Shown: in pieces, positions 1,969-59,935 of the stretch | Layout: each line of letters starts with the position of its first letter | Position numbering within the stretch: position 1 is the first letter of the stretch | NCBI RefSeq assembly: GCF_000760695.4 | Contig: NZ_JHEG04000001.1 | Coordinates: forward strand, 7,849,123 to 7,913,122 | Reading direction: 5' to 3' | Source: Tolypothrix bouteillei VB521301 | GTDB taxonomy: Bacteria; Cyanobacteriota; Cyanobacteriia; Cyanobacteriales; Nostocaceae | DNA length: 64,000 bases | Notes under the pieces: model-generated | What the model was told of the DNA's origin: nothing | Seen by the model: the letters and a program-made list of their open reading frames with translations, nothing else | Databases searched by the model: none | Made by a program: the position numbers and the translations under genes

Positions 1969-2449
1969 AGATTTCTTTTAAATGTAACGTTTCAATCTCT
2001 CGATTGTTGCTAATTTTTGTTGACTGTATAGAGCGACTTCAGTTTCCTATGGCAAAATTTTTATCTTTTCTTCCTGAATTACCCTACCTACTGGGGTCCT
2101 CCCGCGTACACACAAGCTAATTTCTTGTGGGCTGGTATCGTTCCCGCTCCATACACTGGGCTAGGGAGGATGTCCACCCCACAAGAAGGATAACTTATTC
2201 CTTAACAGTTCTTGAGAGAAACGCAGCAAGTGTAGTTAGTCTGTTACTGGTTAGATAAAAAATGAAAATAGGGATCGGGGTAGAACAACCGATCGCCAAT
2301 CGCATTTTTATCTGTTTTGGTGTATGAAAATACATAAGAACTACTTAAATTCGCCTCTGCCTTACTTGATTTTTCAAGGTTTACACCTTCAAATCTAAAT
2401 TGTGAGGAGGAAACTATAAGCAACCAGTCAAAATTAGCTTGACAGAATG
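1969..2449. other. Intergenic region without a recognised gene
   Basis: I see no credible reading frame. A perfect 10-bp inverted repeat (TTCTTGTGGG at 2122-2131, CCCACAAGAA at 2178-2187) and a 7-bp one (TCCTCCC at 2097-2103, GGGAGGA at 2165-2171) cross each other rather than nest. This looks like repeat debris rather than one hairpin. Confidence 0.5.
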
Positions 2450-2746
2450 CTAGACATTGGTTGAGTTTGCCGAACTTGTTGAATCATTGTTGAAATTAGG
2501 CAGAGGACAGCAATTTACATCATTCAAGCAGACTTTGCCCCAGTGTAATGCCCAACGGACAAGAGCAACTCGGTTGTCTGTGCCTGTCTTGGTGAGAATA
2601 TTGCTGATATGGTTGTCAACGGTTCGCTTGCTTATTTCCAACTTTGCTGCAATCTCTTGGTTAGTTAAGCCAGCAGCCACTAAATCAATAATTTGCAGTT
2701 CTCTGTCTGACAGACTAACAGGGGTCTGAGACTCGCCACCAGCCAT
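2450..2746 (-). CDS. Small LuxR/GerE-type HTH regulator, PedR-like
   Basis: This 98-residue protein is almost only a GerE DNA-binding domain: LSDRELQIIDLVAAGLTNQ, then the recognition helix EISKRTVDNHISNI at about residues 37-50. There is no receiver domain. In size and in the C-terminal tail (WALHWGKVCLNDVNCC) it resembles PedR, the short cyanobacterial LuxR regulator that follows photosynthetic electron transport through a thioredoxin-sensitive cysteine. Cysteines are visible at 73, 79 and 80, and from memory Cys80 is the redox residue in Synechocystis PedR. The family call is firm; the PedR assignment is inference. The asparagine/serine-rich end (about 85-98) is not part of the fold. The gene is single, with G-rich tandem repeats upstream. 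Confidence 0.82.
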   Translation of the reverse strand: MAGGESQTPVSLSDRELQIIDLVAAGLTNQEIAAKLEISKRTVDNHISNILTKTGTDNRVALVRWALHWGKVCLNDVNCCPLPNFNNDSTSSANSTNV

Positions 2747-3118
2747 GAGTTTTTTTCCTCTTTAGTATATGTACTTAATCACTCTTTCTCATTCTAGAAG
2801 ATTCTTTTGGAGGTAGATGCTTAAAGTATAGGCAGAAATACTATTTTTATGAGAAGTAGGGCAGAAGGATGAGGGGAGGAGGGGATGGGGGATAAGGAAG
2901 ACAAGGGGGACAAGAAAAGACCACTATTTGTTTTTTTTGTTACTATATACTTATGTATAAATAAGTATAAAGATAAGTAGAAATACTATTAAACAGGAGT
3001 ACTTACAACTAAGTTTGGTAGCAAAAATTGCTATTTAATTGTATGAACGAACGCCAACAAATTGGCAGAAATGTTGTAATTTTATACTGGAAATTCCTAA
3101 GCCAACATCCAAAATTCA
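2747..3118. other. Intergenic region with G-rich tandem repeats
   Basis: This is the divergent region between the LuxR-type gene and the sugar kinase. About 2865-2925 is a GGGGAGG/GGGGATG/GACAAGG short tandem repeat. The rest is A+T rich, with TAAGTATA-like repeats at about 2945-2985 that could carry promoters. I cannot call exact -10/-35 boxes. Confidence 0.5.
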
Positions 3119-4096
3119 ATGAGTAATCCCCGTGTTTTGTGCCTGGGTGAAGTTTTGTTTGACCGATTAGCTGACCAATTGGGGCGAAAGCTAGAAGAAG
3201 TTGAGTCTTGGACAGCTTATCCTGGAGGAGCACCCGCTAACGTAGCCTGTGCTTTAATGAAGTTGGGAACATCTACAGGATTTGTCGGTTGTGTGGGTGA
3301 GGACGCACCAGGTAATGAACTGGTGGAACTGTTTGAAAAGGTGGGTGTAAATACAACAGGAATACAGCGTCATCCCACAGCACCAACAAGGCAAGTTAAT
3401 GTTGTACGCTCGCTCTTAGGCGATCGCTCTTTTGCTGGCTTTAAAGACTTTGAAACCACAGAGTTTGCGGACACTTACCTAAAAGCTGACAAATTACCAA
3501 TAGAGTTATTTGAAGCAGCAGATTTTCTAGTTTTAGGGACTTTGGAGTTAGCTTATCCGGAAAGCGGACAAGCTATTTACCGCGCTTTAGAGCTAGCAGA
3601 ACATTATGATATTAAGGTGCTTCTAGATATCAATTGGCGTCCCGTGTTCTGGACAAATCCCGATATTGCTCCTCAAAAAATTCAAGAATTATTTAAACAA
3701 GTTGATTTTCTCAAACTTTCTAAAGAAGAAGCTGAGTGGCTATTTAATACAGCTGATGCAGGTGCAATCACTTACCGCCTCAATTCGGTTGAAGGAGTTT
3801 TGATCACAGATGGAGAAAACGGCTGTGCTTATTGTCTTGGTGAAAACGAAGGCAAACTCCCCGCTTTTTCCGTCCCTGTCGTTGATACAACTGGTGCAGG
3901 GGATAGTTTTGTCGCTGGCTTTATTCACCAAATACTGACTTATGGTATCCAGAGCTTGAACGACAAAGAAACTGTCACAAAAATTCTGAATTATGCCAGT
4001 GCAGCAGGAGCATTAACGACAATGAAAGCAGGTGCGATCGCATCTCAACCCACTGCAGCCGAAGTAGAAGCTTTTCTCACTTCTCACTCTAGCTAA
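3119..4096 (+). CDS. PfkB-family carbohydrate kinase (fructokinase-like)
   Basis: Predicted cytoplasmic sugar kinase of 325 residues, a normal length for the ribokinase/PfkB family. It phosphorylates a sugar, most likely fructose, with ATP. The family signatures are YPGGAPANVACAL near residues 34-46 (substrate side) and DTTGAGDSF at 256-264, which carries the catalytic Asp262 and the anion hole. DINWRPVFW at about 170-178 is the segment seen in bacterial fructokinases. Fructose-6-phosphate production would link to sucrose breakdown, but no sucrose gene is beside it. Other PfkB substrates such as adenosine, ribose or 2-keto-3-deoxygluconate are less likely. The start ATG has no strong ribosome-binding site, but no alternative start lies upstream in frame. 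A strong hairpin follows the stop. Confidence 0.85.
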   Translation: MSNPRVLCLGEVLFDRLADQLGRKLEEVESWTAYPGGAPANVACALMKLGTSTGFVGCVGEDAPGNELVELFEKVGVNTTGIQRHPTAPTRQVNVVRSLLGDRSFAGFKDFETTEFADTYLKADKLPIELFEAADFLVLGTLELAYPESGQAIYRALELAEHYDIKVLLDINWRPVFWTNPDIAPQKIQELFKQVDFLKLSKEEAEWLFNTADAGAITYRLNSVEGVLITDGENGCAYCLGENEGKLPAFSVPVVDTTGAGDSFVAGFIHQILTYGIQSLNDKETVTKILNYASAAGALTTMKAGAIASQPTAAEVEAFLTSHSS

Positions 4097-44114: not shown

Positions 44115-45266
44115 TTACTCTTGTTCTTTTAAAGCCCGTCGTGCCAATTTCGCATAAGTCTTGACTGTTTCATAAGGCATCTCCAAATCTTGTGCCACTA
44201 CCTGCAAAGACTCTCCCATCTCCCGCCTTGCCAAGATAGTTGCCCATTTCGAGGCTATTTCATCCGCACGATCTCCTCCAGTTCGCTTGCGTTGTGCCCT
44301 AAAAATTTCTACCAAATCCTCAATTCGTTTTGCCAACACACTTTCTACATCAGGTATATCTTGCGGAACTTCAGATGACCAACCCAAACGTGTTTGTCCC
44401 AAGCCAAAAGTAGTTTTATGACCGGTTCCGCAATAAAATGCGAGTTTCCCCAAAGCATAAAATAACTGCTCGAACTCTGGTTCTTGTGCTGCTTCTTTCT
44501 TCAAACTTAACTCAATTGCCCCAGTAAATCCCGTAACTGCACCTTTTTTACCTGCTAATACCTTTACAGTTGTTACCTGACAACGATTAATCAAGACATT
44601 GTCGTCTACCCAAGCCAGAAAAGCATCTTGGTCAACAGGTATCCCGGAAAAGTCGTTCCAACGCCTTAGGTAGCTGTGAAAAATGTTAACTGGAACGGGT
44701 AGAGGTAAATGATGACCTTTGCGACGGAAACTAGTAGGGCTCAGAAATGTTAAGGAGATCGTTCCACCGTACTCAGAATCTAACAGTGCGGCATAAGTTG
44801 TAGGAGGATGTGAAATTTGACAGGAAGCTATAGTTAAGGGGGCGTCTCGCAAATCAACTGAAGAAGGTAACTTTTTTACCCACTGCGCCATCCACTTTTG
44901 TACTCTACTGGATAAAGCTGTGACGTACCAATGATAAGAAGTGTTTGCAAGTAGTCGTATTTGTCTGCCGCTACTGGTTATCTCTCCATCTAATGCTGAG
45001 ATAGTAAACGGTTTTTCGGATTCTCCATCATGCAAGTATGCTGACAGTTCAGGGTCTGTAGAACGCACGCGATCGAGAAACCAGGCATGAAGTCCGATAG
45101 TGTATTGGGCGTAAAGATAAGAATCTTTTTGGGGAACTAACTCAAACATCAAGCCCATCAATTCTGTGTCTGGCGACCATTTTGGGCGAGACTGAGGTTT
45201 ACTTGGCTTTGTTGGAGAGCGTTGGGGCATGATGGTATTTGAGTTTTTTTGTATTTTATCTTGCAT
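44115..45266 (-). CDS. cas6: CRISPR-associated endoribonuclease Cas6 (orphan) with C-terminal HTH-like extension
   Basis: Cas6 RAMP protein of 383 residues, which cuts pre-crRNA at the repeat hairpin. Landmarks: the N-terminal ferredoxin-like fold YTIGLHAWFLDRVRSTDPEL, then LHDGESEKPFTISALDG; the second fold; and the glycine-rich loop GTGHKTTFGLGQTRLG near residues 282-297. Residues 303-383 form an extra helical domain (IASKWATILARREMGESLQV, then AQDLEMPYETVKTYAKLARR) that looks like a helix-turn-helix. No cas1, cas2, interference gene or array is in the window, so it may process RNA from distant arrays. A stem-loop with a G-rich arm stands just before the start codon. ATG at residue 13 (45230) is an alternative start. 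Confidence 0.85.
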   Translation of the reverse strand: MQDKIQKNSNTIMPQRSPTKPSKPQSRPKWSPDTELMGLMFELVPQKDSYLYAQYTIGLHAWFLDRVRSTDPELSAYLHDGESEKPFTISALDGEITSSGRQIRLLANTSYHWYVTALSSRVQKWMAQWVKKLPSSVDLRDAPLTIASCQISHPPTTYAALLDSEYGGTISLTFLSPTSFRRKGHHLPLPVPVNIFHSYLRRWNDFSGIPVDQDAFLAWVDDNVLINRCQVTTVKVLAGKKGAVTGFTGAIELSLKKEAAQEPEFEQLFYALGKLAFYCGTGHKTTFGLGQTRLGWSSEVPQDIPDVESVLAKRIEDLVEIFRAQRKRTGGDRADEIASKWATILARREMGESLQVVAQDLEMPYETVKTYAKLARRALKEQE

Positions 45267-45268
45267 TC

Positions 45269-45284
45269 ATCCCCTGCTGGGGAT
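45269..45284 (-). promoter_or_regulatory. Hairpin immediately upstream of the cas6 start codon
   Basis: On the cas6 strand, ATCCCC-AGCA-GGGGAT forms a perfect 6-bp stem two bases before ATG. The GGGGAT arm lies where the ribosome-binding site should be, so folding would mask it. ATCCCC/GGGGAT stems are also the type found in many cyanobacterial CRISPR repeats, so Cas6 could bind it and regulate itself. Observation is certain; the regulatory role is inference. Confidence 0.5.
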
Positions 45285-45326
45285 AAAGTAATAAATTTTT
45301 ATTGACAAGCCCTACAGACTGGAAGT

Positions 45327-45403
45327 CTGTGGCTACATAAAGGAAGCCCACCTGCGTGGGCTAAAACCCAGAGCCCATGCAGGTGGGCTTTGTTTGTATA
45401 GCC
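45327..45403. repeat. Module A, left copy, flanking the DUF262/AAA operon
   Basis: GTGGCTACATAAAGG, then the palindrome AGCCCACCTGCGTGGGCT, a loop, CCATGCAGGTGGGCTTTG and TTTGTATAGCC. Module A is also at 49153-49230 on the other side of the operon in the same orientation. Related palindromes occur elsewhere in the window. Confidence 0.8.
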
Positions 45404-45647: not shown

Positions 45648-45704
45648 CCACTCTTCTAGAGTGAGGGTGTTTTGGCAAAGGTTTTATTAAGGAAATTACA
45701 TAAT
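45648..45704. repeat. Module B, left copy, exact 57-bp direct repeat
   Basis: From CCACTCTTCTAGAGTGAGGG to GGAAATTACATAAT. It is identical to 49231-49287. Its right end includes the last two codons and the stop of the third gene of the operon. Confidence 0.9.
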
Positions 45705-46646
45705 TTTCAGTCCAATGTAGCCAATGATGATTTTTCCTGGTCCTAAGTCCACGGAAAAGTGAAGTCGCCAAGCCCCTGGTGTCATGCGAACGTGCAAACT
45801 GAAAACACGCTCGTTGCCATCAGGACATTTAAAAGTTAATTCCTTTTTCAATCGCTTCAGCCTTGAGTCACTTTCCGGAGAAACCTTGCAAGGAAGACTG
45901 TCCATATCAAATACTCCATCTGTCCAGTTTTTGCAGGTTTCTTCCATTTCAAACAAACGCTTTATGACTTGCCGTAGTATTGGGTTACCACTGTTAAGGC
46001 TTTGTACTTGCTTATAGACATCATCGCAAAATACAAGATTTGGGAAGAGATCCTCTCTTAAATTCCAAATATCTAATCCGTCCAGAACTGTGGTACGAAT
46101 ACGGTATTTAAACCATTCACTATGTTTTTGTATGTGCTCTTTACAACTAGCATGAACGATTTTTACAACCTCATCAATCAACTCTCCATCTTCATCTATC
46201 CTTCTAAATTCTAAATTTACGTATCTGCAATTCCACTTCTCGTCTGAAAGTAAGCTGACTGATATTGTGTCAAGAATATGAGCAACTCCAAGTCCAATAA
46301 CTTGCTCTCCTTGATAGCAAAATTCAGATAAACCTATGTTATTCTCAATGTTCAAAATCGCTGAATTTATGAGATCTGTTGAAAAAGGGCTTTTAGTTGC
46401 AAGAGTTTTGATAAAACCTCGCTCTATTTGGTCTACTTCTTTATCATTCAGCCAGCGGCGAAGAGGGTAATTAGGCGCAAGTAAGGTAGTATGAAAATCA
46501 TCCTTAGTGCGAAGACTTACCTTTATCCCTCTATCCTTGATTGCCTTTATAGTGCTAATAAAATTAGACATCCATTGTCGTGCTATTGCTTCATTAGGTG
46601 CAGGATTTTGTAAAGACAATTCATTTAATATGACATCAAAATCCAC
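45696..46646 (-). CDS. Third gene of the DUF262/AAA operon, unknown protein
   Basis: Unrecognised 316-residue protein. It is mixed alpha/beta with an N-terminal helical part (ISTIKAIKDRGIKVSLRTKD), a middle alpha/beta part (CYQGEQVIGLGVAHILDTIS), and a C-terminal beta-rich part (KKELTFKCPDGNERVFSLHV, then MTPGAWRLHFSVDLGPGKII) ending with IGYIGLKIM. The last part resembles the small beta fold seen in some RelE/ParE-type proteins, but I do not claim it. No signal peptide and no HNH, TOPRIM or PD-(D/E)XK motif is visible. It starts with GTG 3 bases after the ATPase stop, behind CAGGAGAATG, a strong ribosome-binding site. It is the likely effector or specificity part of the operon, by position only. 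Confidence 0.7.
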   Translation of the reverse strand: MDFDVILNELSLQNPAPNEAIARQWMSNFISTIKAIKDRGIKVSLRTKDDFHTTLLAPNYPLRRWLNDKEVDQIERGFIKTLATKSPFSTDLINSAILNIENNIGLSEFCYQGEQVIGLGVAHILDTISVSLLSDEKWNCRYVNLEFRRIDEDGELIDEVVKIVHASCKEHIQKHSEWFKYRIRTTVLDGLDIWNLREDLFPNLVFCDDVYKQVQSLNSGNPILRQVIKRLFEMEETCKNWTDGVFDMDSLPCKVSPESDSRLKRLKKELTFKCPDGNERVFSLHVRMTPGAWRLHFSVDLGPGKIIIGYIGLKIM

Positions 46647-46649
46647 GTC

Positions 46650-47759
46650 TCATTCTCCTGCTGGTTCTAACAATGCATCCAAGCTTTTTTCCCACTCGTC
46701 AAAGAAGCCATCTGGCCATTTGTCAATTCGTCCGTTTCTATCAATTCTTGGTGAAACGACTTCAGTAAAGGCTAGTCCCTCTTTTTCTCGACGTTGAAAG
46801 TAGTGCAACTGAACATCTTCAGGAGCAAGCTTACCGCTATGAACAGCAAGACGAATGCCATTTAAAACATGATCGCTATGAGTTTCAATTACTGCTTGAA
46901 CACCACAACTAGCTGCAAGCGCCAGTAACTCCCCCATCTTTGCTTGTCCTTTTGGATGCAGATGTGCTTCTGGATTCTCAATTAAAATTAATGTACCAGG
47001 TTCAGATGCCAGTATAGCTACAATAATAGGTAAGGTATATGTAATTCCGAAACCAACGTTGGTCGCTCGGTGAGGGTTTCCCAATCCATAAGAATATTGA
47101 AAGCTTACCAAATCCATATCTGGGTTCGATTGAATCTCTATGCGTGTTCCTGGGCTTACTTCTCCTATCCATGCCTCCACTTGATCTCTCAAATTAAGTG
47201 ACTTGGCTAAGGAATGGCTCAAACGAGAGATGGGAATCTCTTTGTCCCTATATACTGAAAGAAAATGAGCAGTATACTCACCTCTACTTCCTATTTGTTG
47301 ATGTTGCCGTACTTGATAATCTGATATTTCAAAGTATGTGCGAGGTCCAACACGTTCTGCTTGAAGATAATGGAAGTTATCATTGAAAAGATTTGATTTA
47401 TAAACATCAAGAGGGGCTGGTTCTGAGGTTAGAGTTAGGACATCTCCGGCTGGATTATAATTAAAAACCCATATTCCCTTCTTGCCGTCTTCCCAAATCA
47501 GTTCAAAACTAATAGAATCGTCTTGTGCTCCTTGGAAGAGAGCATCTTGAGCTGTACCAATACAGACCAGTTCACCGTTAAGAGCTAACCCTCTCATTGG
47601 TAATAAATCTTGTTGGTATGCTTGGCGTAGCAGACCAAATGCTTGAAGAACAGAAGATTTGCCAGTACTGTTAAGACCAGAAAGTAATGTAAGATTTCTG
47701 AAATGAAGAAATTGCTCTTCAAAAGGTTTGAAGTTTTTTAAGCGGATCGAACAAATCAT
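46650..47759 (-). CDS. AAA family ATPase with DUF3696 tail
   Basis: ABC/SMC-like ATPase of the AAA_15/OLD-related group, 369 residues. Walker A is GLNSTGKSS at about 28-36 after LKNFKPFEEQ, and Walker B is LILIENPEAHLHPKGQ. The C-terminus IDKWPDGFFDEWEKSLDALL is the DUF3696 signature. It lacks a TOPRIM nuclease domain, so nuclease activity must come from partners if there is any. Its ATG overlaps the TGA of the DUF262 gene (ATGA), so the two are translationally coupled. ATPases of this kind occur with DUF262, HNH or other partners in phage-defence loci; the role here is inferred from that context. Confidence 0.9.
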   Translation of the reverse strand: MICSIRLKNFKPFEEQFLHFRNLTLLSGLNSTGKSSVLQAFGLLRQAYQQDLLPMRGLALNGELVCIGTAQDALFQGAQDDSISFELIWEDGKKGIWVFNYNPAGDVLTLTSEPAPLDVYKSNLFNDNFHYLQAERVGPRTYFEISDYQVRQHQQIGSRGEYTAHFLSVYRDKEIPISRLSHSLAKSLNLRDQVEAWIGEVSPGTRIEIQSNPDMDLVSFQYSYGLGNPHRATNVGFGITYTLPIIVAILASEPGTLILIENPEAHLHPKGQAKMGELLALAASCGVQAVIETHSDHVLNGIRLAVHSGKLAPEDVQLHYFQRREKEGLAFTEVVSPRIDRNGRIDKWPDGFFDEWEKSLDALLEPAGE

Positions 47760-48910
47760 AACAATACTTCTTGGATTAATTGTTCAATTATTCTAAACCT
47801 ATACTTGACTTTGGTAATACTATCAGTTCCTTGAGAAATCGATCCCATAAATTCTTTATCATTATCCATGATATCGATAAATCTATCTATTAAATCTTCT
47901 TTTCGCTCTTTTAAATTATAAATTTGTTGCTCTTGAAGATGACTGAGATTGACTGCCCAAGCATCAAACAATGCTTTATTAATGGGATTTTTTTGAGTAA
48001 GTTTATCTTTTGAACGTTTGCGAAAAGCATATTCACCGAAAATGTCAAATGCTACTTTCATTGCTCGTATAAAATTTTGTTCTAACAAATTTATCTCTTG
48101 CTGAGACATTTGATTTATACTAGACATTGTTTCATTCAGAAAAACGTCTAAACTTTTAGCTTGATAATTATTATATGGAGTAAGCATAAAAGCTAAAAAT
48201 CGAAGGACAAAATTTCGATCTTCCATACGAAGATATTTTCGAGTTTTTGTCTTTTGAAGACCTGTTACTAGCTTGAACTCTGCTGAATCTGCAAGTTTAG
48301 CCAAAAGGTTGGCTGCTTGTCCTTGATTCAAAGCATGACGGATTTCTTGTAGTGATAGCGGTAACCCACCAGTATTAATACGTTTGAAAATGTTAAATTT
48401 GACTTCGGGAGGTGTACCTTTTTCGATTAAATAAACTGTAATGACAGTCTCTTTAATTCGACGTTGATAGTGTCGGGGTAGCTCATTATAATTTTTATTT
48501 TTTAAATTAGTAAGAAACTCTAGCCCTTTTAATCTGAGATCGTTATCAATAACAAATCTCTTAATAGCTGTTAAGCGTTGCAGGCCATCTATGACTAACC
48601 ATTTATCATCATCTGTTGCATCCAAATAAAAAGCAGGTAGTGGAATCCGGATAAGAATAGATTCTATAAGCCTACTTTTAGAAATATCCGTCCAAATGTC
48701 AGCGTGACGTTGAAAATCAGGAGTTAAATTAATTTCTTCATATTTAATTCTATCAAGAACAAGATCGATAGTCATTGGTCTAGTATCTACTCTAATTTGT
48801 GTAGGATCAAATGGTTCAGTAATTTCCTCTTCTTGGTCAATATCTGTGTCTTCTTCAAAATCCATGTTCTCATCAAAAAGCTCTGGATTGGATGTTTGGG
48901 TCTTAATCAC
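47756..48910 (-). CDS. DUF262 (ParB/GmrS-like) protein
   Basis: First gene of the three-gene operon: 384 residues from GTG at 48910, chosen because AAAGGAG lies 8 bases upstream; the frame opens 24 codons earlier with TTG without such a site. The DUF262 domain covers about 45-215 with PDFQRHADIW at about 64-73 and DGLQRLTAIKRF at 108-119, a form of the D-G-x-Q-R motif of ParB/Srx-fold NTP-binding proteins such as the GmrS half of type IV GmrSD restriction enzymes. The C-terminal half is helical and lacks the H-N-H nuclease (DUF1524) found in GmrD. It may bind or hydrolyse nucleotide and act as sensor. The TGA overlaps the ATPase ATG. Confidence 0.88.
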   Translation of the reverse strand: MIKTQTSNPELFDENMDFEEDTDIDQEEEITEPFDPTQIRVDTRPMTIDLVLDRIKYEEINLTPDFQRHADIWTDISKSRLIESILIRIPLPAFYLDATDDDKWLVIDGLQRLTAIKRFVIDNDLRLKGLEFLTNLKNKNYNELPRHYQRRIKETVITVYLIEKGTPPEVKFNIFKRINTGGLPLSLQEIRHALNQGQAANLLAKLADSAEFKLVTGLQKTKTRKYLRMEDRNFVLRFLAFMLTPYNNYQAKSLDVFLNETMSSINQMSQQEINLLEQNFIRAMKVAFDIFGEYAFRKRSKDKLTQKNPINKALFDAWAVNLSHLQEQQIYNLKERKEDLIDRFIDIMDNDKEFMGSISQGTDSITKVKYRFRIIEQLIQEVLL

Positions 48911-49130: not shown

Positions 49131-49156
49131 TTACTTAGATACAACTAAATTCACTG
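49131..49156. repeat. Duplicate of the last 26 bases of metF
   Basis: TTACTTAGATACAACTAAAT followed by TCACTG is identical to 49347-49372, the stop codon and last eight codons of metF. It lies between the DUF262 promoter region and module A. Confidence 0.85.
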
Positions 49157-49230
49157 TGGCTACATAAATGTTGCCCACCTGCGTGGGCTCTAGGTTTTAG
49201 CCCACGCAGGTGGGCTTTGTTTGTATAGCC
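49153..49230. repeat. Module A, right copy
   Basis: ACTGTGGCTACATAAATG, then GCCCACCTGCGTGGGC, GCCCACGCAGGTGGGC and TTTGTTTGTATAGCC. The two palindromes can pair with each other. It matches 45327-45403 at both ends, with a different loop. Confidence 0.8.
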
Positions 49231-49287
49231 CCACTCTTCTAGAGTGAGGGTGTTTTGGCAAAGGTTTTATTAAGGAAATTACATAAT
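49231..49287. repeat. Module B, right copy, exact 57-bp direct repeat
   Basis: Identical to 45648-45704. It contains the remnant ATTATGTAA (reverse strand), the end of the third operon gene, although no such gene ends here. It is directly joined to module A. Confidence 0.9.
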
Positions 49288-49346: not shown

Positions 49347-50276
49347 TTACTTAGATACAACTAAATTCACTGGCGCAACTCCTGCCAAATCCAAAATTTG
49401 TGGAATCAAATCTTCACGCTTCACTGCCATCATGTGAACTCCATGACACAATTGACGCGCTACTTGCACTTGTTCGGCTGCAATTTTCATCCCTTCTTCT
49501 AAAGGTTTTTTAGCTTTTGCCAATCGATCGATGATGTCTTGGGGAATATTTACACCCGGTACGCATCGATTGATAAATTGAGCGTTCTTAGCTGATTTTA
49601 AAAGAAAAATTCCAGCTAAAATCGGTTTGTTACAACCACCAGCTATTTGATCCATAAACTTTTCCAGCCGTTCAAAATCTGTAATTAACTGACTTTGAAA
49701 GAATTGCGCTCCTGCTTCTAGTTTGCGATCAAATCGGCTTTGCAATCCGGACCAACTGTTACATTGCGGGTCAACAGCTGCACCGGGAAATAAGTTTAGC
49801 GCTCCATCTGTTAAAGGTTGCTCGTTGCAATCAACACCGTGATTGAGTTTCTGTATCATTTGTAGCAAGCGTATTGACTCTAAATCAAAAACTCCTTTGG
49901 CTTCTGGGTGGTCTCCTGCTTTCACGGGGTCACCAGTCAAAGCGAGGATATTATGAATACCCAAAGCGTGAGCACCCATAAGGTCGGCTTGCAAACCAAT
50001 CCGGTTGCGATCGCGACACGCAATCTGACAAATCGGCTCAATTCCATTCTGTAACAAAATAGCTGATGCCACAAGCGAAGACATCCGCAGCACAGCACGG
50101 CTACCATCTGTGATGTTGACGGCATGAACCCTCCCCTTAAGGGTCGCCGCCATTTCAATCATATGTGTTGGATCTCCCCCTTTAGGAGGCGCAACCTCAG
50201 CAGTCACGAGAAACTCCCCCGCTTGTGCGGCTGCGCGAAATGAACTTAAGGGAGTGGTTGTCAAGATGTTGTGCAT
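49347..50276 (-). CDS. metF: Methylenetetrahydrofolate reductase
   Basis: FAD-dependent enzyme of the MTHFR family, 309 residues. It reduces 5,10-methylene-THF to 5-methyl-THF, which supplies the methyl group for methionine. Landmarks: FLVTAEVAPPKGGDPTHMIE at the N-terminus, HAVNITDGSRAVLRMSSLVA, HNILALTGDPVKAGDHPEAK (conserved LTGDP), FFQSQLITDFERLEKF, and the PILAGIFLLKS strand. The sequence is a single barrel without an extra regulatory domain. TrpS lies 75 bases upstream on the same strand with a foldback repeat between, so the two may form one transcript. The last 26 bases are duplicated at 49131-49156. A clear terminator follows. Confidence 0.9.
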   Translation of the reverse strand: MHNILTTTPLSSFRAAAQAGEFLVTAEVAPPKGGDPTHMIEMAATLKGRVHAVNITDGSRAVLRMSSLVASAILLQNGIEPICQIACRDRNRIGLQADLMGAHALGIHNILALTGDPVKAGDHPEAKGVFDLESIRLLQMIQKLNHGVDCNEQPLTDGALNLFPGAAVDPQCNSWSGLQSRFDRKLEAGAQFFQSQLITDFERLEKFMDQIAGGCNKPILAGIFLLKSAKNAQFINRCVPGVNIPQDIIDRLAKAKKPLEEGMKIAAEQVQVARQLCHGVHMMAVKREDLIPQILDLAGVAPVNLVVSK

Positions 50277-59458: not shown

Positions 59459-59589
59459 GCCAGAAGCGATCTCCCGACTGCAACAAATAATCTTTCTTTT
59501 TCAAGATAATGCCATTAAGCCATGTGCTGTCATATAAACGGCGCATAACCGTGATAATACCAGTTCTATATGAAGTTGCGCTTAAAATT

Positions 59590-59935
59590 CCCTCACATTG
59601 GAAATGTGGGGCTATACAAACAAAGCCCGCCTGCGCGGGCTAAATTTTAAGTTTGCTGCACTTCATGCACCCCAATGAATGCACATTGCCCTCAAAACAG
59701 AATTCTAGGGCTATACGAACCAAGTCCCTTCGGGTTCGCCAGTCCCCAGGGCGCGGGAAACCCGCCTTCAGGGCTGGTCTCACCAGTCGCCAGGGCGTGG
59801 GAAACCCCCCTGTAGCGCTGGACTCACCGCCTGCGCGGACTTGATTGAAGCCTGCGTAGCTCCCTCTTTGTTTGTGTAGCCGCGATTTCCAATCGTCGGC
59901 GTTTTTTCTCTCATTGGAATGCTCCTTTATGATGT
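59590..59935. repeat. Composite interspersed repeat
   Basis: Contains GGGGCTATACAAACAAAGCC with a CCCGCCTGCGCGGGC palindrome, the CAGAATTCTAGGGCTATACG module, CCAGTCCCCAGGGCGCGGGA and CCAGTCGCCAGGGCGTGGGA tandem-like units, and then TTTGTTTGTGTAGCCGCG, TTTCCAATCGTCGGCG as at 9355-9395. It fills the space between the GNAT gene and the cyclase. ORFs in it are not genes. Confidence 0.75.

Follow-up and report, generated by a model that had tools for sequence, protein, structure and literature searches.

A Menshen operon of Tolypothrix bouteillei whose third protein carries a predicted RelE-like domain

Described systems and the identity of the operon

The closest described relatives of the operon considered here are Menshen and ptuXYZ. 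Resistance by Menshen is lost when its DUF262 protein is mutated or deleted, according to the passages of a review that deal with it (PMC10952713), and the same passages count an OLD/TOPRIM nuclease among its components. A 2026 review, in an excerpt, counts Menshen among the systems of unknown mechanism (PMC12926258). Extracts of Gerdes 2025 describe ptuXYZ as a DUF262 protein, a PtuA-like ATPase and a third protein with a PIN-like N-terminus and a BECR C-terminus (PMC11980606). Here we analyse nsnA-nsnB-nsnC, a three-gene operon at 45696-48910 of a 64,000-nucleotide stretch of the Tolypothrix bouteillei VB521301 genome (the window, to which coordinates refer). Judged by sequence, gene order and the conservation of that order, it is a member of Menshen.

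The three genes are adjacent on the minus strand, in the order A-B-C. The first, nsnA (47756-48910, GTG start at 48910), has AAAGGAG 8 bases 5' of its start codon and encodes a 384-residue DUF262/GmrSD_N protein of the ParB/Srx type; its stop overlaps the start of nsnB as ATGA. From nsnB (46650-47759, ATG at 47759) comes a 369-residue ABC/OLD-type ATPase with a C-terminal DUF3696 domain. After a gap of 3 bases follows nsnC (45696-46646, GTG at 46646), with AGGAG 8 bases 5' of its start, which encodes a two-domain protein of 316 residues. The original prediction had described exactly this layout, including the ribosome-binding site of nsnC, and had seen a D-G-x-Q-R motif in the first protein, where it is present as DGLQR. 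The guanine-cytosine content is 32.5% in nsnA, 40.5% in nsnB and 37.9% in nsnC, compared to 43.6-45.3% for cas6, metF and trpS.

Each protein matches a PADLOC model over nearly its whole length: NsnA at 5.4e-143 (residues 14-383 of 384), NsnB at 1.3e-126 (residues 1-365 of 369) and NsnC, with model PDLC03879, at 4.1e-112 (residues 1-315 of 316). We take the Nsn names to be those of the Menshen system of Millman et al. 2022, which is said to be known through phage assays. The three proteins, their order and their similar lengths agree with Menshen, and we found nothing that excludes the present operon from it. The original prediction had taken the trio for an undescribed system, a view to be given up if the system proved to be catalogued already. 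The near full-length matches rule that view out, because PADLOC-DB 2023 lists NsnABC and Menshen has already been published.

Family searches add detail. NsnA matches Pfam GmrSD_N (1.5e-23), and NsnB, which contains GLNSTGKSS, ENPEAHLHP and ETHSDH, matches AAA_15 (2.4e-23), DUF3696 (5.1e-21) and AAA_21. There were zero Pfam matches to HNH/DUF1524 or TOPRIM at E<=1 in NsnA, NsnB or NsnC, which speaks against a nuclease of either kind hidden in NsnA or NsnB and agrees with the earlier description of an ATPase without a nuclease domain. This separates the operon from GmrSD, BrxU and SspE, which share a DUF262/GmrSD_N domain with DGxQR (passages of PMC10952713) but carry a DUF1524 HNH nuclease, and from the OLD/Gabija nucleases with their TOPRIM domain. 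It also sets the operon apart from Menshen as those passages present it, with an OLD/TOPRIM nuclease as a component, whereas here the effector is predicted to be RelE-like.

The architecture of ptuXYZ, as given in the extracts of PMC11980606, matches the one predicted for NsnA-NsnB-NsnC, and we infer that ptuXYZ and Menshen are one system. The likeness is one of described architecture, the PtuZ modelled there comes from Flavobacterium sp. 1, and the word Menshen has 0 occurrences in the available text of that paper.

Conservation of the trio and architecture of NsnC

Within the order, NsnB has a match in 37 of 195 genomes (E<=1e-80) and NsnC in 32 of 195; across the phylum, the NsnB model matches at least 25 of 292 genomes at E<=1e-60, a lower bound because 6 candidates per genome were scored, and 0 of 14 controls. 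All three counts include the own genome. The Vibrio phages PQ189377.1 and OR762784.1 have NsnB relatives at 38% and 32%, annotated as hypothetical.

We compared gene neighbourhoods at 39 of the 40 NsnB places, excluding the window's own; for G150 the contig with part of nsnC and the end of nsnB was used in place of the listed fragment. nsnA adjoins nsnB in 37 of the 39 places (none was found in G044, and in G150 its position is past the contig end). Some form of NsnC, whole or as a remnant, is likewise present in 37. G101 lacks it and also has a truncated nsnB, and in G181:C21 its position is past the contig end. The trio is thus conserved as a unit; a lack of such conservation would, on the original prediction's own terms, have counted against it. 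Among the 37 NsnC places, 27 have a protein similar to the window type (two of them remnants matching only a part), 2 match the N-terminal part alone (G049 and G054), and 8 have a frame of another type, of 251-283 residues. Two of these eight were scanned (L120 and L131), and their best match is PDLC03898, as it is for L117 of G313. Motifs are also widely kept in the fetched loci: a strict Walker A occurs in 60, ENPExHLHP in 55 and ETHSDH in 45 of 64 distinct NsnB-like frames, and DGxQR in 54 of 56 distinct NsnA-like frames.

At five places nsnC is interrupted or shortened beside whole nsnA and nsnB (G074, G056, G071, G088, G093). Interruption or truncation affects nsnB in two (G153, G101); as for nsnA, G049 has it in split form and G044 lacks it. 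We do not take the more frequent decay of nsnC as proof of toxicity, since 5 cases versus 2 and 2 in 39 places are too few. Outside this sample, the same-genus genome G195 has an nsnC reduced to 73 residues. In L049, a single open frame of 541 residues (2181-3806) covers nsnB together with the first part of nsnC, with a stop then following inside nsnC.

NsnC itself has no Pfam match. Its AlphaFold model has a mean predicted local distance difference test score (pLDDT) of 91.3 and a predicted template modelling score of 0.70. The N-terminal domain (residues 1-186; 46089-46646, minus strand), with N8, E9 and S11 invariant, is possibly PIN-like. For the C-terminal domain (residues 200-316; 45699-46049, minus strand), fold comparison of the model predicts a RelE/YoeB/HigB-like (BECR) fold, resembling the type II toxins of that name and Cami1. 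It differs from these in being the tail of a larger protein within an ATPase operon, and Pfam and further sequence comparisons detected no similarity to them. The domain has conserved polar residues, and a non-significant local alignment pairs R294 with a conserved Arg of Gp49. Modelled alone (4 sequences), it reached a pLDDT of 54.4, too poor for a structure search.

NsnC has 292 relatives at E<=0.01, of which 120 were listed. In relatives, differing C-terminal parts are joined to a common N-terminal part. Li et al. 2025 (NAR gkaf357) reportedly treat domain polymorphism in Menshen and may already report polymorphic NsnC. The third proteins of L112, L119 and L121, all below every Pfam cut-off, end in a WYVDN...HLEVFD tail and may represent another toxin; for L112 and L119 the best match is the NsnC model PDLC03889. 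A YGY...YHG-type tail is found in the third proteins of L117, L120, L131, L171 and L172; those of L117, L120 and L131 are also below Pfam cut-offs and have PDLC03898 as best match, and those of L171 and L172 resemble them.

NsnC is the likely effector of the operon. The original prediction, a defence operon with the third protein perhaps as effector, fits the catalogue match, the fold comparison and the varying C-termini, if not the claim of novelty. Its remark that no nuclease motif is visible holds as far as searches by motif and profile go; the fold comparison, on the other hand, points to a RelE-type domain.

Proposed mechanism and its alternatives

We favour, with a probability of about 0.65, the view that this Menshen operon is a phage-triggered cell shutdown system, in which NsnA and NsnB sense infection and restrain a toxin and the predicted RelE-like tail of NsnC likely cuts mRNA. 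The DUF262 nucleotide pocket of NsnA and the ABC-type ATPase of NsnB would form a sensor or switch that holds the toxin in check, with the N-terminal domain of NsnC docking onto them; the trigger may be modified DNA, DNA ends or a phage protein. On activation, the C-terminal domain would halt translation, likely via mRNA cutting, and the arrest would lead to cell death or dormancy ahead of phage release.

Alternatively, the operon may be Menshen but with a ParE-like or other non-RNase toxin, such as a gyrase poison, as the C-terminal domain of NsnC, so that the stop would occur at the level of DNA and not of translation; we regard this as unlikely. Slightly less plausible again is an activity like that of type IV restriction, with NsnA and the NsnB ATPase attacking modified phage DNA directly and NsnC serving only as a scaffold or specificity subunit. 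Arguing for this, NsnA matches GmrSD_N, the extracts of the ptuXYZ paper propose that its DUF262 protein acts as a nuclease (PMC11980606), and the review passages describe the Menshen protein associated with it as a predicted OLD nuclease (PMC10952713). Counter to it, DUF1524/HNH and TOPRIM are unmatched in all three proteins, and the C-terminal parts of NsnC differ among relatives. We consider it very improbable that the operon is directed at plasmids or other elements instead of phages. Mobile elements do also carry NsnB relatives: at E<=1e-40 these turned up in 19 of 72,556 plasmid records, and at E<=1e-20 in 2 of 50,697 phage records. However, the window occupies 7.85-7.91 Mb on the genome's large contig and is not on a small replicon, and Menshen is tied to phage assays in the review passages (PMC10952713) and, reportedly, by Millman 2022.

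The metF-cas6 slot and probable exchange of the operon

The operon lies between a metF-like gene (49347-50276, minus strand), named by its sequence and not by family search, and a stand-alone cas6 whose product has a C-terminal HTH (44115-45266, minus strand; Pfam CRISPR_Cas6, 4.4e-21; PADLOC Cas6 and HTH). Between the window and the same-genus locus L151, in which cas6 is at 92% and nsnC is broken, synonymous divergence (dS) is 0.33 for cas6, 0.30 for metF and 0.36 for trpS, versus 1.26 for nsnB and 1.40 for nsnA, values above 1 being near saturation. Because the nsn values are far above those of the flanks, it is probable that either the window's lineage or that of L151 has had its operon replaced between flanks that stayed conserved. 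Against Tolypothrix campylonemoides (L002), dS is 0.82 for nsnC, 1.11 for nsnB, 1.40 for nsnA, 1.35 for metF and 1.50 for trpS. The nsn genes are under purifying selection, with ratios of nonsynonymous to synonymous divergence of 0.10 to 0.28.

All 21 of the 21 relatives have metF, and the stretch beside it was fetched for 19 of the 20 other than our own (G200 was left out). The nsn genes adjoin metF in three of these 19 (G195, G197 and G198), and likewise in L002; in the other 16, the roughly 3 to 9 kilobases fetched downstream of metF contain no nsn match. G203 has an nsnA homologue elsewhere. On the cas6 side, a CRISPR-repeat-like hairpin sits directly 5' of the cas6 start (within 44115-45300; z score -2.98), and L151 has one too, with a changed loop (z score -6.88). 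It is possible that this hairpin is a Cas6 target in the gene's own leader.

Two repeat copies, both read on the plus strand, bracket the operon, at 49154-49287 on the upstream side and 45648-45704 on the downstream side. A stretch of 57 bases is identical between them (the whole downstream-side copy and 49231-49287), and two further blocks are shared in matching order, with repeat blocks at 45327-45403. The downstream-side copy overlaps the 3' end of nsnC by 9 bases; the last residue of NsnC is M in the window versus Q in L002, L003 and L004. In the own genome, where 40 of 183 candidate matches were scored, the first ~115 bases prove to be a dispersed repeat family with at least 60 matches, and we therefore rejected the copies as true attachment sites. 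Among the matches listed, only the two at the operon extend to base 134, and one other to 126; L151 and L002 have no copy at E<=1e-3. The shared repeat end fits recombination at the operon edge, as a hint and no proof. Elsewhere in the window, an Rfam CRISPR-DR28 match at 59619-59642 is probably not a CRISPR array, because it sits on a dispersed palindromic repeat copy (59584-59644).

A broader interpretation, which we offer tentatively and with rather more doubt than belief, is that Menshen provides an immune scaffold to which interchangeable warheads are fitted. The NsnC N-terminus, as a degenerate PIN adaptor, would plug into a sensor of ParB-type protein and ABC ATPase. The toxin, in the present operon a cryptic RelE-type mRNA interferase that sequence search does not reveal, would be swapped among lineages. 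Whole operon alleles would be exchanged at the fixed metF-cas6 slot by edge recombination, and Menshen and ptuXYZ would be the same system.

The operon is of a known kind, and the useful part of the finding is the effector assignment. In a same-genus genome pair, the defence operon has diverged as if replaced and the flanking genes have not. A candidate for the missing effector can now be proposed: residues 200-316 of NsnC as a RelE-type toxin, a testable prediction for a system whose mechanism is listed as unknown in the review excerpt (PMC12926258).
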